In this document: positions 13,074-39,257 of the stretch, piece by piece
How positions within the stretch are numbered: the stretch's first letter is position 1
Layout of the letters: every line of letters starts with the position of its first letter
Assembly: GCA_029253285.1 (NCBI GenBank)
Contig: JAQWZU010000036.1
Location: 1 to 39,475, forward strand
Source of the DNA: Akkermansiaceae bacterium
GTDB lineage: Bacteria > Verrucomicrobiota > Verrucomicrobiia > Verrucomicrobiales > Akkermansiaceae
Length of the DNA stretch: 39,475 nt
Direction: 5' to 3'
Made by a program: the position numbers and the translations under genes
Notes under the pieces: generated by a model
What the model saw: the letters and a program-made list of their open reading frames with translations, nothing else
The model's database searches: none
Told to the model about the DNA's origin: nothing

Positions 13074-13448
13074 GGATCAGTTCCAGAAGACCGTGGACAT
13101 TCGTAAAAAGACGCGCGACGGGGGTGGAGTGCATCGGGAGTGACGATCGCGTGATGATTGATCGATGATGTCACCGGTCTCTCCGTGGGGCGACGTCGTG
13201 ACGGCGTTTCGGGCGCTGAAGTTCTTTTTAAGATTAGACGATTAGCCTTCGTATAAACTGAATCGACTCAATGCTTACCTCACGAAAACATTTACTCAAA
13301 GGCCTCACTTTGGGGACAGGTGTTCCTGAATCCGATGATCCAAGGGGGGGAGCCGTAATAAAAGCACAGGATTGCATCGAACCGGAGTTAAGCGCTAATT
13401 ACAATACCCCTATGTTTTTCTTGCTTGAATCACCTTCTCTAAGAGCCC
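13074..13448 (+). other. Gene-poor stretch with a possible decayed Tat-protein N-terminus
   Basis: No intact gene is seen. A frame beginning at ATG 13271 reads MLTSRKHLLKGLTLGTG, which resembles the start of a DUF1501/DUF1552-type Tat protein (basic pair-like SRK, then a hydrophobic Gly/Leu segment), but loses protein character after about 20 codons and runs into the repeat at 13449. This may be the stump of a deleted gene. The likeness is short and could be chance. Confidence 0.3.
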
Positions 13449-13471
13449 TCCCGCCAAAAGCAAATTTCCAG
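13449..13471 (-). repeat. Degenerate copy of the CTGCTAGG repeat family
   Basis: Read on the minus strand, the inner half (AATTTGCTTTTGGCGGGAG) matches the family exactly, while the outer CTGCTAGG end is altered to TTTCTGGAA. It is the only copy outside 29-39 kb and lies 8 bases before the start of the second DUF1552 gene, next to a possible gene stump. Confidence 0.6.
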
Positions 13472-13478
13472 AAATAGT

Positions 13479-28758: not shown

Positions 28759-29076
28759 ATGAAAGCCACTAAAGAACGTTATACCAAGACACAGATTTTA
28801 GATCAAATCGGAGAAGAAACTGAACTGAGCCGCAAGCAAGTTGCTGCTGTTCTCGAAAGCCTTTCCGGCGTGATCGAGGGCCACATCAAGAAGCGCGCCG
28901 TCGGCGAGTTCGTCCTTCCCGGGTTGCTGAAGATCGTTACCGTCCGCAAGCCGGCAACGAAAGCTCGTATGGGCATCAATCCATTCACCAAAGAAGAGGT
29001 GATGTTCAAGGCCAAGCCTGCCTCCACTGCAGTCAAGGTTCGTCCTCTGAAGAAGCTCAAGGAAATGGCTCAATAA
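28759..29076 (+). CDS. HU/IHF-like DNA-binding protein
   Basis: 105 residues from ATG 28759; an in-frame TTG 24 bases upstream adds eight residues of no family character. The sequence follows the HU fold: KTQILDQIGEETELSRKQVAAVLESL (helices 1-2), then VLPGLLKIVTVRKPATKARMG in place of the arm that in HU reads GFGxFxVxxRxARxGRNP, then GINPFTKEEVMFKAKPASTAVKVRPLKKLKEM. The GINPxTxE motif and the basic C-terminus are kept. It is about 15 residues longer than E. coli HU. It would bind and bend DNA as a nucleoid protein. It has its own terminator and no ribosome-binding site is visible, and it marks the boundary to the repeat-rich region. Confidence 0.9.
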   Translation: MKATKERYTKTQILDQIGEETELSRKQVAAVLESLSGVIEGHIKKRAVGEFVLPGLLKIVTVRKPATKARMGINPFTKEEVMFKAKPASTAVKVRPLKKLKEMAQ

Positions 29077-29170: not shown

Positions 29171-29185
29171 TACTGCTAGGAAATT
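29171..29185 (+). repeat. CTGCTAGG repeat, copy B (outer end only)
   Basis: TACTGCTAGGAAATT matches the outer end of the repeat family exactly; the inner part (TGCTTTTGGCGG) is replaced by unrelated sequence. Together with copy C, in opposite orientation at 29326-29352, it frames a 182-bp noncoding segment. Confidence 0.7.
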
Positions 29186-29325
29186 ATCTCGTCAAATCCG
29201 CGCCCATTGACCGCCTCCGCGATTCTGCTCTCTTTGCGCTTTCACCCCTGCCAGAGCGGTGCCCACTCGCCACTCTCCCCTTATGGTAGACTCTCTAATC
29301 TACTCAACAACCTCCTCTGGGAAAC

Positions 29326-29352
29326 CCCGCCAAAGGAAAATTCCTAGCAGTC
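29326..29352 (-). repeat. CTGCTAGG repeat, copy C
   Basis: On the minus strand it reads GACTGCTAGGAATTTTCCTT followed by TGGCGGG, differing from the consensus at three inner positions. Inverted relative to copy B. Confidence 0.8.
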
Positions 29353-29557
29353 AGTTTGAGGCTCATCCGAAGTTGATTCACCCCCTTTACTGATTGGGGG
29401 ATGCGGCTTAGGGGGATCGGTGGTTCACAAATCTATGTGACAAAAAATTGGGCTTTAGCACGTATTAAAAATTAAGCCACGCTGTCTTTTCTGCGTTATA
29501 AACTACTGCTTGGATTGTAATTGTTAGCAAAGAATTGGGTTGATATTTTTTATAAAT

Positions 29558-30283
29558 ATGAAGTTTTTGACTCTTCTTTTAATTACTACGAACCTTATCA
29601 CAGCGTTCTTTGGCTACCAGGAACATATTAAGTCTAGCGAATCTCTAGCTAAGTCTAACGAATCTCTAGCTAGGCTAGCACGGACACAAAATCATCTTAA
29701 CGCGCTTGTATCCGACCGAGTTCGAATGCAAGAAAATCTTTCAGAAGCAAAGGCGGAACTAAAGGCAGCCCGTTCGAAAGGAGTCGAGCAATCTGCAGTC
29801 AACAAAGAACAACCTAAAGAAGGCAAAGAATTACCTTATTTCCCTTCTTCAACCAAGGAACTGATGTTCGGGTCCAATCCGGTCGTCACGGATAAGGATA
29901 AGGCTTTCTGGGAAGCGGCGAAATCCGGCAACTTGGAAGCCCTGCAAAGCCTTCTTGGCGAAGGAGTAGATGTCGACATCTACGGCAGCACCATCGGAGT
30001 TGACTTTGGGTGCACAGCTCTTTTCTGGGCCGCAAAACACAATCACAAGCAGGTGGTGCAGTTCTTACTCGAGAAGGACGCCTACATCGATGCTGGCGCG
30101 GGCATGGGTGGATCTCCTCTTCATATAGCGGCCTACGAGGGGCACTCCGAAATAGTAGAGCTACTTATTTCTGAGGGAGCGAACGCTGAGGCCAAAACTG
30201 GAGAAGGCGAGACCGTCTTTGATTTCGCGAATGAAGAGATCGCTACCCTCATTCGTAAGAGTATCGAAGAGAAGCAGAAGTAA
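29558..30283 (+). CDS. Exported or membrane-anchored ankyrin-repeat protein with coiled-coil stalk
   Basis: 241 residues from ATG 29558 (an in-frame TTG 18 bases upstream is less likely). Hydrophobic 3-19 is a signal or anchor. Residues ~25-80 form a charged helical stalk that starts with a small internal duplication (SSESLAKSNESLARLAR, visible as a DNA repeat around TCTAACGAATCTCTAGCTA). Ankyrin repeats follow at 115-141 (FWEAAKSGNLEALQSLLGEG), 150-180 (CTALFWAAKHNHKQVVQFLLEK) and 184-214 (SPLHIAAYEGHSEIVELLISEG), plus the start of a fourth. The role is probably protein-protein contact in the envelope; no enzyme motif is seen. It lies alone between repeat copies C and D; the stop codon abuts copy D. 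Confidence 0.85.
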   Translation: MKFLTLLLITTNLITAFFGYQEHIKSSESLAKSNESLARLARTQNHLNALVSDRVRMQENLSEAKAELKAARSKGVEQSAVNKEQPKEGKELPYFPSSTKELMFGSNPVVTDKDKAFWEAAKSGNLEALQSLLGEGVDVDIYGSTIGVDFGCTALFWAAKHNHKQVVQFLLEKDAYIDAGAGMGGSPLHIAAYEGHSEIVELLISEGANAEAKTGEGETVFDFANEEIATLIRKSIEEKQK

Positions 30284-30359
30284 TCCCCTTTCTCCCCCAC
30301 GGGTTCCGCCAAACGCGGTTTCCGCGATCTTCCCGCCAAAAGCAAATTCCTAGCAGTAA
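30284..30359 (-). repeat. CTGCTAGG repeat, copy D (near full length)
   Basis: On the minus strand: CTTACTGCTAGGAATTTGCT, then TTTGGCGGGAAGATCGCGG, AAACCGCGTTTGGCGG and a G-rich tail ending GAGAAAGGGGA directly at the ankyrin gene's stop codon. It contains a perfect hairpin, CGCGG-TTT-CCGCG (30314-30326 on the plus strand). Confidence 0.85.
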
Positions 30360-30418
30360 GAATCCAGCTTGACCTGATACTTCCTCATTTCTCACATTAA
30401 ACCATCCTTCCATTCACG

Positions 30419-31201
30419 ATGAAAACAACCATTCTACTAATCATCATCCCCCTATTGGGCCTCACGTCCTGCAAGCAGGCACAAAAACAACAAAAGGCTC
30501 AAGAGGCAGAAAAGGAGCTACATGAATCGCTAGCCGACCTCAAGAAATCGCAGTCGGACTCTTACGAGAAAACAGGCGAAGTCAGCAGCGACAAGGGCGC
30601 CACGGACAAGGTAATCCAAGCTGCAAAAAAAATGGAAGAATCTGGCGGCAAGTCCCAAGCCGCCAAAGGAGCAAGTATCCGTATCTGGGTGAACCTTATG
30701 AAGCGAGAAGAAGCTATTCTCACGAGAGGGGCAGACCACATAGCCGTTGGCTCTGATTATTCTAAAATTAAGAAAAAAGAAGATATCGCCAAAATGTCTG
30801 CCGCTGTGCGCAAATATGAGGCTATTAACCAAGCCACTATCAAAGGAATCAACGGAGGCTGGTTTCAAGAGGTCAAAGACAAGATGAACGATGAAGAGAT
30901 ATCCTCCACTCTCATCAAGCGTGGCATTGTTAGTCTCAAAAGTGGTTTCAACAAAATCAAACCTACTCTATTAGTACTCAGGAAGACAGATCTCGCTCTC
31001 TGCGCAGGCCTACTTGAGCAGCACGCTGTGCTCACAGAGTCATACGGCAAATGGGTTTGGGATGCCGAAGAGGAAGTCCCTTCATTCACCGAAGATGCGG
31101 AAGACGCTCATCTCGATAGATACAATAATGCTGCGGACAAAATCCAAAAAGCTATCGACGAACAAACTGTCGCCCAACGGGTGTTAATGCAAAATCGCTA
31201 G
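30419..31201 (+). CDS. Lipoprotein of unknown family
   Basis: 260 residues with a textbook lipoprotein signal: MKTTILLIIIPLLGLTSC, lipobox LTSC with Cys18. The next ~75 residues are very polar and helical (KQAQKQQKAQEAEKELHESLADLKKSQSD), a probable coiled-coil tether. The rest is a mixed helical domain (ASIRIWVNLMKREEAILTRGADHIAVG, SAAVRKYEAINQATIKGINGGWF, GLLEQHAVLTESYGKWVWDAEEEVPSF). I do not recognise the family. It is transcribed alone and is flanked by repeat copy D (inverted) and copy E, so it looks like a one-gene unit. Confidence 0.75.
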   Translation: MKTTILLIIIPLLGLTSCKQAQKQQKAQEAEKELHESLADLKKSQSDSYEKTGEVSSDKGATDKVIQAAKKMEESGGKSQAAKGASIRIWVNLMKREEAILTRGADHIAVGSDYSKIKKKEDIAKMSAAVRKYEAINQATIKGINGGWFQEVKDKMNDEEISSTLIKRGIVSLKSGFNKIKPTLLVLRKTDLALCAGLLEQHAVLTESYGKWVWDAEEEVPSFTEDAEDAHLDRYNNAADKIQKAIDEQTVAQRVLMQNR

Positions 31202-31208
31202 GAGAATT

Positions 31209-31325
31209 TTACTGCAAGCTCTCGCGGTCTGATTTTTTTAAACTCTTCACCACAAGATCATACGAGTGATCGATGAGTTCGTAGAGCAGCGAATCTGGGA
31301 CACATCCATCAAGCACAACGGTGTA
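31209..31325 (-). pseudogene. C-terminal fragment of an MmcQ/YjbR-family gene, cut at repeat E
   Basis: Read on the minus strand from 31325 to the stop at 31209-31211, the frame encodes YTVVLDGCVPDSLL followed by YELIDHSYDLVVKSLKKSDR and ESLQ. This is the recognisable C-terminus of MmcQ/YjbR proteins (pattern W/Y-x-x-V-x-L-D-G-x-V-P-D ... E-L-I-D-x-S-Y-x-L-V-V). Those proteins are about 115 residues long; the first ~75 are missing. The likeness stops exactly where the repeat begins (TACTGCTAGG at 31324), and the next codon in frame is a stop made by the repeat itself. The fragment has no start and is dead. Confidence 0.7.
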
Positions 31326-31390
31326 CTGCTAGGAAATTGCTTTTGGCGGAAAGGTCGCGGAAAACCGGGTTTGGCGGGAAAGGGTTGAAG
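31324..31390 (+). repeat. CTGCTAGG repeat, copy E (long form)
   Basis: TACTGCTAGGAAATTGCTTT, then TGGCGGAAAGGTCGCGG, AAAACCGGGTTTGGCGGG and AAAGGGTTGAAG. Compared with copy J it lacks the GAAGACATGG block near the 3' end. Its left end is the truncation point of the MmcQ/YjbR fragment. Confidence 0.9.
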
Positions 31391-31503: not shown

Positions 31504-32130
31504 ATGAAGATTTTAACATCAATTTTAGCTCTGTCGTTTTTCTGTGCGCCCCTGTCCTTTGCAGCGGACGGGTTTACTACGATTTTTGACGGCAAGGACT
31601 TGTCGAAGATCAAAACTGCCGGGAACTGGAAGATCCAGAAAGATGGCTCACTTTTCCTGGAGCCGAGGTCCGGCGAGAAGGGCTGGTCGCGTTACGGTTC
31701 CTACCTGTGGCTCAAGGAGGATTACAAGGACTTCATTTTCGACTTCGAGTATAAGCACGAAAAAGGTGGGAATTCAGGCCTCTATTTCAGGATTTATGAT
31801 GAGACTGACCCGACTGCACACGGTTTTGAGGTGCAGATTCTTGACTGCTTCGGCAAAAAGAAACTCGGCCAACATGACCTTGGAGGGGTGATTAAGACTG
31901 CCGGCCCGCTGGCCAACGGCTCGAAGCCAGCTGGTGAATGGAATCGTATGGTTGTGACAATGAAGGAAGGCAGGTTGAGTGTGGTCCTCAACGGTAAGAC
32001 GGTGCAGGATAAACTGGATCTAGCGGCCAGTAAACCGAAGAACAAGAGGTTGGCGGATTCGGGGAAAATTGCGATTCAGGACCACGGCCAAAAATTCTGG
32101 GTGCGCAACCTGAAGGTCAAGAGTCTATAG
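31504..32130 (+). CDS. Secreted DUF1080 (3-keto-glycoside hydrolase-like) protein
   Basis: 208 residues; signal peptide MKILTSILALSFFCAPLSFA. The whole mature part is one DUF1080 domain (LamG-like jelly roll): GFTTIFDGKDLSKIK (the family's FNGKDLxGW opening), WLKEDYKDFIFDFEYKHEKGGNSGLYFRI (79-96), HGFEVQILDCFG (107-116), GEWNRMVVTMKEGRLSVVLNGKTV and a closing GKIAIQDHGQKFWVRNLKVK. DUF1080 members cleave 3-keto-glycosides in several bacteria. It shares the KGGNSG and G-(F/I)-EVQ-(I/V)-LD motifs with the last catalytic part of the fusion gene at 23933. It stands alone between repeat copies E and F. Confidence 0.9.
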   Translation: MKILTSILALSFFCAPLSFAADGFTTIFDGKDLSKIKTAGNWKIQKDGSLFLEPRSGEKGWSRYGSYLWLKEDYKDFIFDFEYKHEKGGNSGLYFRIYDETDPTAHGFEVQILDCFGKKKLGQHDLGGVIKTAGPLANGSKPAGEWNRMVVTMKEGRLSVVLNGKTVQDKLDLAASKPKNKRLADSGKIAIQDHGQKFWVRNLKVKSL

Positions 32131-32217: not shown

Positions 32218-32270
32218 TGACTGCTAGGAAATTGCTTTTGGCGGAAGACATGGGCGGGAAAGGGGCTTGA
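32218..32270 (+). repeat. CTGCTAGG repeat, copy F (internally deleted form)
   Basis: TGACTGCTAGGAAATTGCTT, then TTGGCGGAAGACATGGGCGG and GAAAGGGGCTTGA. Relative to copy J it lacks the 27 bases between the two GGCGGAA repeats, as expected for a deletion between direct repeats. Confidence 0.9.
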
Positions 32271-32972: not shown

Positions 32973-33052
32973 TTACTGCTAGGAATTTGCTTTTGGGTTG
33001 GAACCTTTGGGGGCGCCCTTGAGGGGATCGGGAGAGGGGAGAAAGGGGCTTC
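32973..33052 (+). repeat. CTGCTAGG repeat, copy G (divergent middle)
   Basis: TTACTGCTAGGAATTTGCTT at the left and GGGGAGAAAGGGGCTT at the right match other copies; the ~45 bases between are G-rich but diverged. Total about 80 bases. Confidence 0.75.
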
Positions 33053-33316
33053 CCGACTATGGTCAGATGTTCAATGAAGTAGATGGTCGGAAGGTGGTGA
33101 GAATGTAAACGGGGCTGAATGCTCATGGTAGCCGAGTGGAGCCAGTGGTCGATGTTGGGGCACAATCACGCATCATGAGCGTCAAAGGAATCGATGATGC
33201 CCTGAGAAACCTTTAAGGAACCAAGACATGATCACTGAGGTTGGCAAGATTAGACCCGGTATGGTCTAGAGGAGTAAATCGAGCTCACAACAGGAGGACT
33301 TGGCAGGTCTCCACTA
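33053..33316. other. Intergenic stretch without recognisable gene
   Basis: Between repeat copy G and the MscS stop. All frames are short or broken, and no convincing family remnant or terminator was found on either strand. Confidence 0.4.
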
Positions 33317-34762: not shown

Positions 34763-34800
34763 GAGCTGCTAGGAATTTGCTTTTGGCGAGAGGGCCTTGA
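34763..34800 (+). repeat. CTGCTAGG repeat, copy H (short form)
   Basis: CTGCTAGGAATTTGCTTTTG then GCGAGAGGGCCTTGA. It lacks the whole middle of the long form. It is the left part of the ~375-bp duplicated segment shared with 36189-36565. Confidence 0.85.
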
Positions 34801-34835
34801 TGTCGCCTTTGGGGCGGAGCGACTGCTTGAGTTTT

Positions 34836-35140
34836 TCACGGTTTGGCAAGCCAGTGGTCAGCGAAGTCGAGGGAGTGTTTCCAATCCTCGGGGGTGATGT
34901 TGTGTTTTCCTTCGCGGATGTGGTAGCGCATGAGGTTACCAGCACTTGTTCCTGGTTGGGCCTGTGGTGTAGGAGCTCTGAAGGGATTTTTTTGGTAGAA
35001 CTCGTAGATAGAGACAGCATGTTTGAGGGCGAGGAATTCTTCGGTAGGGTCAGCCCAAAGGTCCCGGGTGGCGCTCGCGGCATAAATCGGACGAGGGGCA
35101 ATCAGAGCGATGAGCTGATGCTGGTCGATTGGCAGTGCTG
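34836..35140 (-). pseudogene. Duplicated 3' fragment of the CE15-like esterase gene
   Basis: On the minus strand this encodes the last ~101 residues of the protein at 36261-37535 (ALPIDQHQLIALIAPRPIY to DFADHWLAKP and stop) at about 90% DNA identity or better, in frame and without internal stops. The likeness ends abruptly at 35140; beyond it the frame stays open into hydrophobic text (ILFPILSPLGNLFAVFG) of no family likeness. It lacks the signal peptide and nucleophile Ser but keeps the catalytic His region (REGKHNITPEDW). It is not functional as an esterase. Confidence 0.9.
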
Positions 35141-36186: not shown

Positions 36187-36223
36187 TACCGCTAGGAATC
36201 TGCTTTTGGCGAGAGGGTCTTGA
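36187..36223 (+). repeat. CTGCTAGG repeat, copy I (short form)
   Basis: CCGCTAGGAATCTGCTTTTG then GCGAGAGGGTCTTGA, the same short form as copy H. It lies 38 bases downstream of the CE15-like gene's stop and is part of the duplicated segment. Confidence 0.85.
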
Positions 36224-36260
36224 TATCGCCTTTGGGGCGGAGGGTAACTGCTTGAGTTTT

Positions 36261-37535
36261 TCACGGTTTGGCAAGCCAGTGGTCAGCGAAGTCGAGGTAG
36301 TGTTTCCAATCCTCGGGGGTGATGTTGTGTTTTCCTTCGCGGATGTGGTAGCGCATGAGGTTACCAGTAATTGTTCCTGGTTGGGGCTGTGATGTTGGAG
36401 CTCCGAAGGGATTTTTTTGGTAGAACTCGTAGACAGGGACAGCGTGTTTGAGGGCGAGGAATTCTCCGGTAGGATCAGCCCAAAGGTCCTGCGTGGCGCT
36501 CGCGACATAGATCGGACGAGGGGCAATCAGAGCGATGAGCTGATGCTGGTCGATGGGCAGTGCTGCTTCATTCTTGTTGTATTTTTTGAAGCTGTCGTTG
36601 AACCAGTGCGGGAAGTTGCTGTTAATGCGCTGAACCGTTTCGCCGTAGGCACGCATGCTGAGGGCTGCTCCTCCACAGCCTGAATTGTTAGAAATGGCCA
36701 TGGCGAAGCGTGGGTCGGTGGCGGCGGCCCAGAGGGCGGTTTTCCCGAGTCGGGAGTGACCTATCGTCGAAATACGCGAGCCGTCGATTTCCTTAATCTC
36801 GGTGAGAAGGTCAAGCATCCGGCTCATACCGTAGGACCAGGCAGTGATGGTGCCCCAGCTTTTTTCGTTCCGAGGTTTTTGGTCGAGCGCATGCAGTCCA
36901 TTCTCAAAGCCGTCGTGGAAGTCGGGATCGAAGTTTGAGCAGCAGGCAGTGGCGAGTGCGTATCCACGGCTAACGATGAGCTTGGCTGGCCAACGTTCGG
37001 CACCGGTTCCCCTTGACGACTCAAGCGAGCGGTTATTCTTCACGTAGTTTTTTCCTCCAATCACATAACCCTTTTCCATGATGATTTCCGGGTCGGCCTC
37101 GACAAGTTGGTTCCCCCGAAAATTGAGACCAAGAAAACCCGGAACAGGTCCTTTGGCGTCTCGCGGGATGTAAACAAGCAAACGGGCTTGAACCTTGTTT
37201 TCAAATGTCACGAGATACTGACGTCGGATCGCGATGCCTCCAAGGGCTGCCGGGTCTTCGTGCTCTATTTTCCAGTTCATTTTTGGCTGGAAGTCTTTCG
37301 GGGTTCTGCCGTAAACGTGATCTTGGAACTCTCTGAGTGTCGTTTCGCGACCATGCGACTCCCAATCGGCTCGGGAAGTAATATTTTCCCCGCCCGGCGA
37401 AAGTGGGTCAGGGAGGGTGTGGGCAGGGACCTTTTCCTCATCGTAATTAGCAACGAACTTTTGGGCCGAAAGGATACCCGGGTTGGTTGCAAAAGTGAGC
37501 AAAAGGTAAATGGTGTATCGAGAGCGCAAATCCAT
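36261..37535 (-). CDS. Secreted CE15-like glucuronoyl esterase
   Basis: 424 residues; signal peptide MDLRSRYTIYLLLTFATNPGILSA. The nucleophile motif GHSRLGK (Ser261) corresponds to the GCSRxGK motif of CE15 glucuronoyl esterases, followed by AALWAAATDPRFAMAISNNSGCGGAAL, a strong signature of the bacterial branch. An acid candidate is Asp350 or Asp354 (TQDLWADP) and the base is His403 (REGKHNITPEDW). Such enzymes cleave the ester between glucuronoxylan side chains and lignin or alcohols, and many bacterial relatives are annotated as acetylxylan esterases. It would act outside the inner membrane on plant or algal glycans. Its last 101 codons are duplicated at 34836-35140. It is a single unit with repeat copy I behind it. 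Confidence 0.85.
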   Translation of the reverse strand: MDLRSRYTIYLLLTFATNPGILSAQKFVANYDEEKVPAHTLPDPLSPGGENITSRADWESHGRETTLREFQDHVYGRTPKDFQPKMNWKIEHEDPAALGGIAIRRQYLVTFENKVQARLLVYIPRDAKGPVPGFLGLNFRGNQLVEADPEIIMEKGYVIGGKNYVKNNRSLESSRGTGAERWPAKLIVSRGYALATACCSNFDPDFHDGFENGLHALDQKPRNEKSWGTITAWSYGMSRMLDLLTEIKEIDGSRISTIGHSRLGKTALWAAATDPRFAMAISNNSGCGGAALSMRAYGETVQRINSNFPHWFNDSFKKYNKNEAALPIDQHQLIALIAPRPIYVASATQDLWADPTGEFLALKHAVPVYEFYQKNPFGAPTSQPQPGTITGNLMRYHIREGKHNITPEDWKHYLDFADHWLAKP

Positions 37536-38916: not shown

Positions 38917-38990
38917 TGACTGCCAGGAATTTGCTTTTGCCGGAAAGGTCGCGGAAACCGGATTTGGCGGAAGACATGGGCGAGAAAGGG
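38917..38990 (+). repeat. CTGCTAGG repeat, copy J (full-length form)
   Basis: TGACTGCCAGGAATTTGCTT, then TTGCCGGAAAGGTCGCGG, AAACCGGATTTGGCGG, AAGACATGGGCGAG and AAAGGG. It contains all blocks seen in the other copies and is taken as the reference long form (about 74 bases). Confidence 0.9.
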
Positions 38991-39257
38991 AGTTACACTC
39001 CACTTACGATCAGGGCGAAGGATACCTTTTACGATTGGTGTTTCATTGATGAATTGCTAAAGCTTTTGGTGAAAATGTCTTCACTCCGATTCTTCTCCAT
39101 CCTTCTTCTTTTTATCACGCCGGGAGAAGTCACTTCGACAACATCCGCCTTGTTGGTGCGTAAAATATTCATTCTGAGAAAAGTGAAGGTTTGATGTCAT
39201 ACTCCCCACAGGCAATATTAGGGTTTTTTGCACTCCAACGCACGGCCACAAAACAAC
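38991..39257 (+). other. Intergenic stretch with a possible gene tail
   Basis: No intact gene is seen. A short frame ends HFDNIRLVGA and stop (39131-39163), an ending often seen in secreted carbohydrate-binding or LamG-like domains. It has no start and is too short to assign. Confidence 0.25.

Follow-up and report, generated by a model that had tools for sequence, protein, structure and literature searches.

Most of what is known of gene capture by IS91 and ISCR elements concerns resistance and virulence regions. A single tyrosine characterises ISCR transposases, and in REP/RAYT systems short intergenic repeats are spread by an HUH enzyme acting in trans. For IS91 sensu stricto, passages of PMC5714925 give two catalytic tyrosines four residues apart (Y249/Y253), and passages there and in PMC3189936 describe IS91-family transposition as beginning at the right end of the element and as able to overrun or stop short, thereby moving neighbouring DNA. 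In sections of PMC3189936 on IS801, a member of the IS91 family, right-end fragments and adjacent gene pieces are reported to move. Here we describe a terminus of this class that has been reduced to ~80 bp and lies, dozens of times in a genome, between ordinary genes of environmental bacteria; differences between related genomes cluster at it. The parts of this system belong to a known kind, IS91/ISCR; in the open-licence literature we recognised no description of its array-forming, transposase-poor form in this lineage, and no literature there matched IS91 together with Akkermansiaceae. The analysis started from a 39,475-nucleotide stretch of an Akkermansiaceae genome (henceforth referred to as the window) and extended to the rest of that genome and to 96 relatives.

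A YjbR gene fragment at the edge of a repeat

The minus-strand frame 31325-31209 of the window (38 codons and a stop) translates as YTVVLDGCVPDSLLYELIDHSYDLVVKSLKKSDRESLQ* and, as the sequence-only reading had proposed, is the C-terminus of a YjbR/MmcQ protein. The fragment represents the last third of such a protein (37-38 C-terminal residues) and matches profile positions 67-88 of the 88 in Pfam YjbR PF04237 (E 3.4e-4), its score of 21.7 bits lying under the curated cut-off of 30.1, as expected because only a fragment is present. The best match found was the intact YjbR of one relative (G049), with 72% identity over 36 residues and 80% likeness over 61 bp at the DNA level. This likeness runs to base 31324; base 31325 is A, the base that typically precedes the repeat (127 of 172 copies), and the repeat itself, henceforth R, begins at 31326 with its 21-bp core directly beside the fragment. 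The in-frame codon before the fragment is TAG, formed by the repeat, so that both the abrupt end of the likeness and the repeat-supplied stop were as initially read. The counterpart of the cut point in G049 lies between residue 79 (N) and residue 80 of a protein of 116; 37 residues therefore remain in the window and ~79 of 116 are lost, which upholds the loss of the N-terminal part and replaces the earlier figure of ~75 residues. The missing part, which the sequence-only reading had suggested might lie next to another repeat copy, was found neither beside R nor anywhere else in this genome (96.7% complete). The sole other YjbR gene found in the genome, on contig C121 (G000:C121:26673-26937; L032, L047), is a distinct paralogue whose frame is apparently broken by a small deletion.

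The breakpoint is formed by the outer edge (CTGC) of an R copy at 31326..31381 (+), which is orthologous to a copy in three relatives, G005, G002 and G017. Only in these three of the 96 relatives did matches span both sides of the site, and the YjbR piece was absent from all three. The site is anchored on the left by a gene at 28760..29076 (+) for what we take, from its sequence, to be an HU-like DNA-binding protein, and on the right by a 3-keto-disaccharide hydrolase (DUF1080) gene at 31504..32130 (+). In G005 the order is simply HU-like gene, one repeat and hydrolase gene, the repeat and the hydrolase gene forming a single block conserved with the window; the arrangement is the same in G002, with an internal deletion in the repeat, and in G017, with the first ~13 bp of the repeat swapped for other sequence (L328 on C61, beside the HU gene; possibly an outer-edge scar).

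What this genome has in addition is a segment of 2,152 bp (29174..31325), absent at the same site in G005, G002 and G017 and bounded by two direct copies of CTGCTAGGAAATT, the first 13 bp of R. The left copy (29174..29186, (+)) follows the HU gene. Within the segment lie two R copies in the opposite orientation, one of the outer half only (29313..29350, (-), outer edge 29350) and one of full length (30279..30356, (-), outer edge 30356), an ankyrin-repeat gene (29540..30283, (+)), an orphan ORF of 260 aa (30419..31201, (+)) and the YjbR piece. Once the segment is removed, 349 positions of the window align collinearly with G005 at 95.4%, with a single gap; the corresponding values are 91.8% and 15 gap positions for G017, and 86.6% and 31 gap positions for G002. 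Among the 96 relatives, the 969 bp that hold the ORF and the YjbR piece (30357-31325) matched DNA only twice, over 61 and ~31 bp. Since the relatives lack the piece and these 969 bp are nearly matchless among them, the YjbR piece most likely arrived with the segment, having been cut elsewhere, and the R copy at 31326, being common to the relatives, was most likely already resident when the segment arrived. The segment requires more than one event, because its left junction consists of only 13 bp of R and its two inner R copies are inverted. We also observed that the stretch 29174-29350, after the HU gene, is an inverted pair of R starts around 177 bp, resembling a tiny element with 13-bp inverted ends.

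These results change how the locus is to be read. The repeat edge is a true breakpoint, as had been claimed, both here and at further R copies. The proposal that a YjbR gene was cut in place by deletion is not supported at this site, where the piece ends a segment seen in this genome alone and is missing from the aligned relatives. The alternative proposal, insertion of the repeat, comes nearer the mark in that the repeat is a transposon end (see below), but the copy at 31326 is common to the relatives and most likely preceded the segment.

Copies of the repeat and boundaries between genomes

R is ~80 bp long and starts with the 21-bp core, for which the window contains 8 matches with up to 3 mismatches compared to none in 100 shuffles. 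Downstream of the hydrolase gene, copies on the (+) strand occupy 32221..32248 (differing from G005 past the core), 32976..33054, 34766..34820, 36189..36253 and 38920..38996, and a diverged copy lies outside the array at 13429..13475 (-), with 4 core mismatches and a profile E of 6.8e-5. The copy at 36189 adjoins a full-length glucuronyl-esterase-like gene (36261-37535), and R together with ~300 bp of the 3' part of this gene is duplicated 1.4 kb apart (34766-35121 and 36189-36546), the duplicate running from R's edge and the first copy ending within the gene. The genome contains 38 core matches (up to 2 mismatches). With at most 1 mismatch allowed, the core was found in 28 of the 97 genomes (this one and the 96 relatives) and, among the matches listed, in many Akkermansiaceae/Verrucomicrobiota MAGs. 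MAGs labelled Deltaproteobacteria, Halioglobus and Mariniblastus (L185, L219, L222) have it too, through either mis-binning or a wider spread, and a 4219-bp entry of a viral collection (L272), perhaps not viral, has R beside a gene that by eye appears to be of the PEP-CTERM type.

A profile of R gave 230 hits in loci taken from this genome and from seven others of the genus, the relatives' copies having been fetched in part, from contigs among the matches listed. The profile was seeded with core matches and the core holds most of its information, so copies lacking the core are harder to detect. The outer edge is constant, with 219 of the 230 hits starting within 9 positions of it and 11 not doing so; the inner edge varies, with 121 of the 217 hits whose start falls no more than 6 positions from the outer edge reaching position 76 or beyond of the 84 in the model. 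Arrays are mostly one-way: in 78 of 89 cases adjacent copies, a few of which form close tandems, have the same orientation, and the genes between them face either way with no strong rule relative to R. The target preference comprises A at -1 and a weak T-G/T-A at -3 to -1, with no further rule, and no target-site duplication was noticed by eye in some copies inspected. Five copies folded as DNA on both strands gave no stable hairpin (z -1.20 to +0.51), RNA folds were likewise weak, and Rfam returned no match from 4 sources. R was rejected as a MITE flanked by terminal inverted repeats, its outer edge having no inverse repeat at the other end save in the 177-bp stretch noted above. A transposase encoded inside the arrays was similarly rejected, as the 25 most paralogue-rich clusters among 761 ORFs were, by eye, not transposases.

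R is a preferred boundary of change between related genomes. Homology blocks of at least 400 bp and 78% identity, with ends more than 60 bp from a contig end, terminated at R in at least one genome in 31 of 107 cases, compared to 3.9 expected (maximum of 1000 simulations, 11), and at R in both genomes in 10 of 107, compared to 0.05 expected. Flank matches were broken in 78 of 116 comparisons at R and in 32 of 461 at random points of the same loci, for points with 300 bp on each side and free of N runs and for matches with at least 600 bp of room; these comparisons are not independent. Large insertions or deletions were listed in 15 rows, the same event appearing from each of two genomes among them; R lies at a junction in 8 of these rows and at none in the other 7. 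L038 of this genome holds a piece of 640 bp together with its R, and this piece is found at a different place in G002, beside an R; insertions of ~3.4 kb and ~5.8 kb lie beside R in G016 (with a scaffold gap, right-hand copy) and on another contig of this genome.

The cut at R's outer edge is seen in other genes too. A 334-aa gene (G019 L157) and a 482-aa gene (G016 L152) are cut within 2 bp of it, and at G002 L126 and L125 homology ends equally close to it although the compared genome shows no R. These four remained of seven rows after three had been set aside because of an R detected by the profile (L038/L127), a stretch of N (L100/L144) and a deletion that crosses the edge (L164/L042). In 37 cross-genome pairs of R copies, the outer flank alone was kept in 16, the inner flank alone in 12 and both in 9; within genomes the inner flank alone was kept in 2 pairs (one a 22-bp tandem) and the outer flank alone in 1. 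With outer-only and inner-only pairs so close in number, the direction of mobilisation is not settled by the flank pairs.

The repeat as the end of an IS91/ISCR-like element

R is the 3' end of an IS91/ISCR-like element, the terminus of a class of ~500-aa transposases. Twenty transposase loci were fetched, 13 with this class and 7 with another (L297, with fragments of both, was counted with the first). All six intact ~500-aa genes with enough downstream DNA have R in one orientation, its outer edge 252, 261, 264, 273, 274 and 292 bp past the transposase stop, and for the seventh (L288) the contig ends 269 bp past the stop. The last bases of the element are CTAGCAG in three of the six and one- to two-base variants of this in the other three. 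The core itself is diverged in three of the six, with 4 mismatches and no profile hit at L293 and L294, and with 3 mismatches and a weak hit at L303, where several copies are present and the nearest was taken. Broken genes that keep the C-terminus (L289, L301, L297) have R ~280-310 bp past it, a spacing that agrees within ~20 bp. No R was found at six of the seven loci with the other class (L290, L291, L299, L300, L302, L304); at the seventh, L295, a truncated gene has an R-like core with 3 mismatches alongside. As a separate observation, transposase genes are apparently cut beside R or an R-like copy at L295 (G083:C75, 3635-3736) and L306 (G006:C99, 4549-4555).

The solo copies are related to these ends. 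The R that ends the element in G003 shares up to 90% identity across 72 bp with solo copies of this genome, and the copy on contig C110 of this genome keeps ~180 bp more of the element at 71.5%. One piece of transposase was found in this genome, codons 393-488 at the start of contig C223 (1-303) with 81% identity, and it runs into an R copy in the expected orientation. Across the 97 genomes, counted by hand with G038, G074 and G077 left out (only 25-27% identity), the class is present in 18 of 28 that bear R and in 6 of 69 that do not (Fisher p 4.8e-8, kinship ignored); among those six, G071 carries an end that resembles R with 3 mismatches. Within the genus, where 17 genomes bear R, an intact gene of the class was found in G003 alone, a further 7 have fragments, broken or contig-cut genes, and in the other 9 none was detected at E 1e-10.

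Two proteins of the class carry PF04986 (Y2_Tnp) and PF14319 (IS91 zinc ribbon), and one scored 187 bits against NCBIfam IS91 (cut-off 125). The HUH motif is evident from H175, P176, H177 and H179, invariant in 9 aligned proteins, whereas the Y-x-x-x-Y pair of IS91 is present in two ~390-aa proteins and seven ~500-aa proteins keep its second tyrosine (Y262) only. The ends are dissimilar, with no terminal inverted repeats: in the stretches fetched R lies solely 3' of intact genes, and on the 5' side conservation starts ~55 bp or less from the start codon in most cross-genus pairs, with no R. Just upstream of the transposase gene, five of seven genes (L298, L287, L288, L292, L303) have a palindrome, TGTTC-N4-GAACA, which to our eye resembles a LexA box. 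SOS control is reported for three ISCR transposases in passages of PMC13393415.

Proposed mechanism and comparison with known systems

We consider it probable that R is the origin end of the element and that one-ended rolling-circle transposition moved neighbouring DNA, leaving genes cut at R's edge. The R copies would mostly be ~80-bp derivatives, without transposase, of an IS91/ISCR-like rolling-circle element, and the ~500-aa transposase, now or formerly acting in trans, would nick at R's outer edge. Copying would then proceed through R and the DNA beyond it until a chance stop. Should R be the right end, a unit would start at R's outer edge and extend into the sequence past R. The product would be joined to the target with R's outer edge against the target. 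If insertion happened again and again at older R ends or next to them, one-way arrays would result, with an R at the head of every unit of host DNA and the preceding unit losing its far end, often within a gene, exactly at the next R's edge. The YjbR fragment would be such a cut far end of a mobilised segment; this identity, the rolling-circle step and its direction are what we infer from the arrangement. The window has one example of an R-headed unit, the copy at 34766 with its ~300 bp of esterase gene. Several observations sit uneasily with the model. Pure one-ended transposition predicts ragged inner edges, whereas that of most solo copies is fairly fixed; flank pairs of the two kinds are about equally common; and the 13-bp left junction with inverted inner copies does not fit a single step. 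The remainder of the gene cut in G016, which a simple insertion would retain, was not found apart from one 50-bp match. Further points against the model are the scarcity of intact transposase genes in the genus, the lack of a stable hairpin or of a target rule past A at -1, and the R-like core adjacent to the other transposase class at L295.

It is possible instead that the R copies are dead transposon ends now serving as short substrates of homologous (RecA) recombination, whose exchange swaps intervening genes and leaves the YjbR cut as a by-product. We think this unlikely, even though change affects the two flank types to a similar extent, this genome yielded no intact transposase of the class, the copies are mostly 75-90% alike over ~75 bp, and passages of PMC3189936 make a closely similar case for the majority of IS801 fragments in the genomes of P. 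syringae. The four edge-cut cases weigh against it: homology there stops no more than 2 bp from R's outer edge although the other genome shows no R, an outcome that exchange between two R copies cannot produce; moreover, the junctions of the 2.15-kb segment have just 13 bp in common and the outer edge is retained in nearly all profile hits. Less credible still is that a resident YjbR gene lost its N-terminal part from R's edge while the relatives lost the segment by recombination between the 13-bp copies. These copies are direct repeats and deletion between them would give exactly the relatives' arrangement, and sequences matching the YjbR piece are widespread in the group, 49 of the 97 genomes (counting this one) having one. 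Against this reading, YjbR is absent here in G005, G002 and G017, loss would be required in each separately or in an ancestor of theirs, and locally G002 resembles this genome (95.6%) more than it does G005 (93.4%).

An integron-like cassette system, with R as an attC-type site for a tyrosine recombinase, appears very improbable. The mostly one-way gene arrays with an intervening repeat and the gain of segments at R in cassette fashion recall such a system, but the five folded copies show no attC-like fold on either strand and R is attached to an IS91-type transposase, a link that makes this reading unlikely unless a recombinase captured R. The tyrosine recombinase hits of the genome are XerC/D-like, a 403-aa protein (34 of the 265 bits of the integron-integrase cut-off) and an unclassified 95-aa fragment, none of the three lies on a listed R-bearing contig, and no integron integrase was found in this genome at its 96.7% completeness. 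An origin from RAYT/IS200 was also considered and rejected: with a threshold of E 1e-5, 12 of the 17 genomes of the genus that bear R (this one and 11 of the 16 others) gave no Y1 transposase match, one or more being present in G006, G020, G021, G022 and G026.

One-ended transposition from R, our preferred reading, would explain the gene fragments at repeat edges and the many contigs of these assemblies that end near R. More tentatively, and with the balance tilted somewhat against it, solo ISCR-like ends may constitute a standing gene-cassette system in mostly marine Akkermansiaceae, in which an origin end plus a host gene would be the mobile unit, units would insert at older outer edges, and one-way arrays of unrelated genes would turn over between species, as integron arrays do, but through an HUH transposase in trans. 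The repeat offers a natural, testable system for one-ended transposition and for the assembly of gene arrays without an integron.

Compared to integron cassette arrays, the R arrays are alike in being mostly one-way, in having a repeat between genes and in their cassette-like gain and loss, and differ in that R has no attC fold, no integron integrase was found and genes lie in either direction relative to R. R shares with REP/RAYT repeats a short, dispersed, intergenic nature but is not palindromic. Among the closest known elements is IS801 of Pseudomonas syringae (IS91 family), which, according to sections of PMC3189936, also has an IS91-type transposase, no inverted repeats and a constant 3'/right end, and truncated right-end fragments of which are mobilised with adjacent gene pieces, as the movement here would be. 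Unlike IS801, the ~80-bp end here far outnumbers the transposase (38 core matches and one fragment) and forms arrays between ordinary genes, and unlike IS91, the ~500-aa transposase keeps one of the two tyrosines. ISCR elements, as described in parts of PMC13393415 and PMC5714925, similarly have an IS91-related HUH transposase and distinct ori and ter ends and are credited with moving their neighbours, and ISPps1 on pADP-1 is of similar size (515 aa). The class nevertheless scored only 117 bits against the 925-bit cut-off of NCBIfam ISCR clade Ia, and of at least 5000 plasmid matches the 12 listed are 27.6-28.5% identical to it and mostly carry an ISPps1-family annotation; the cargo here, unlike that of ISCR, consists of ordinary Verrucomicrobiota genes.
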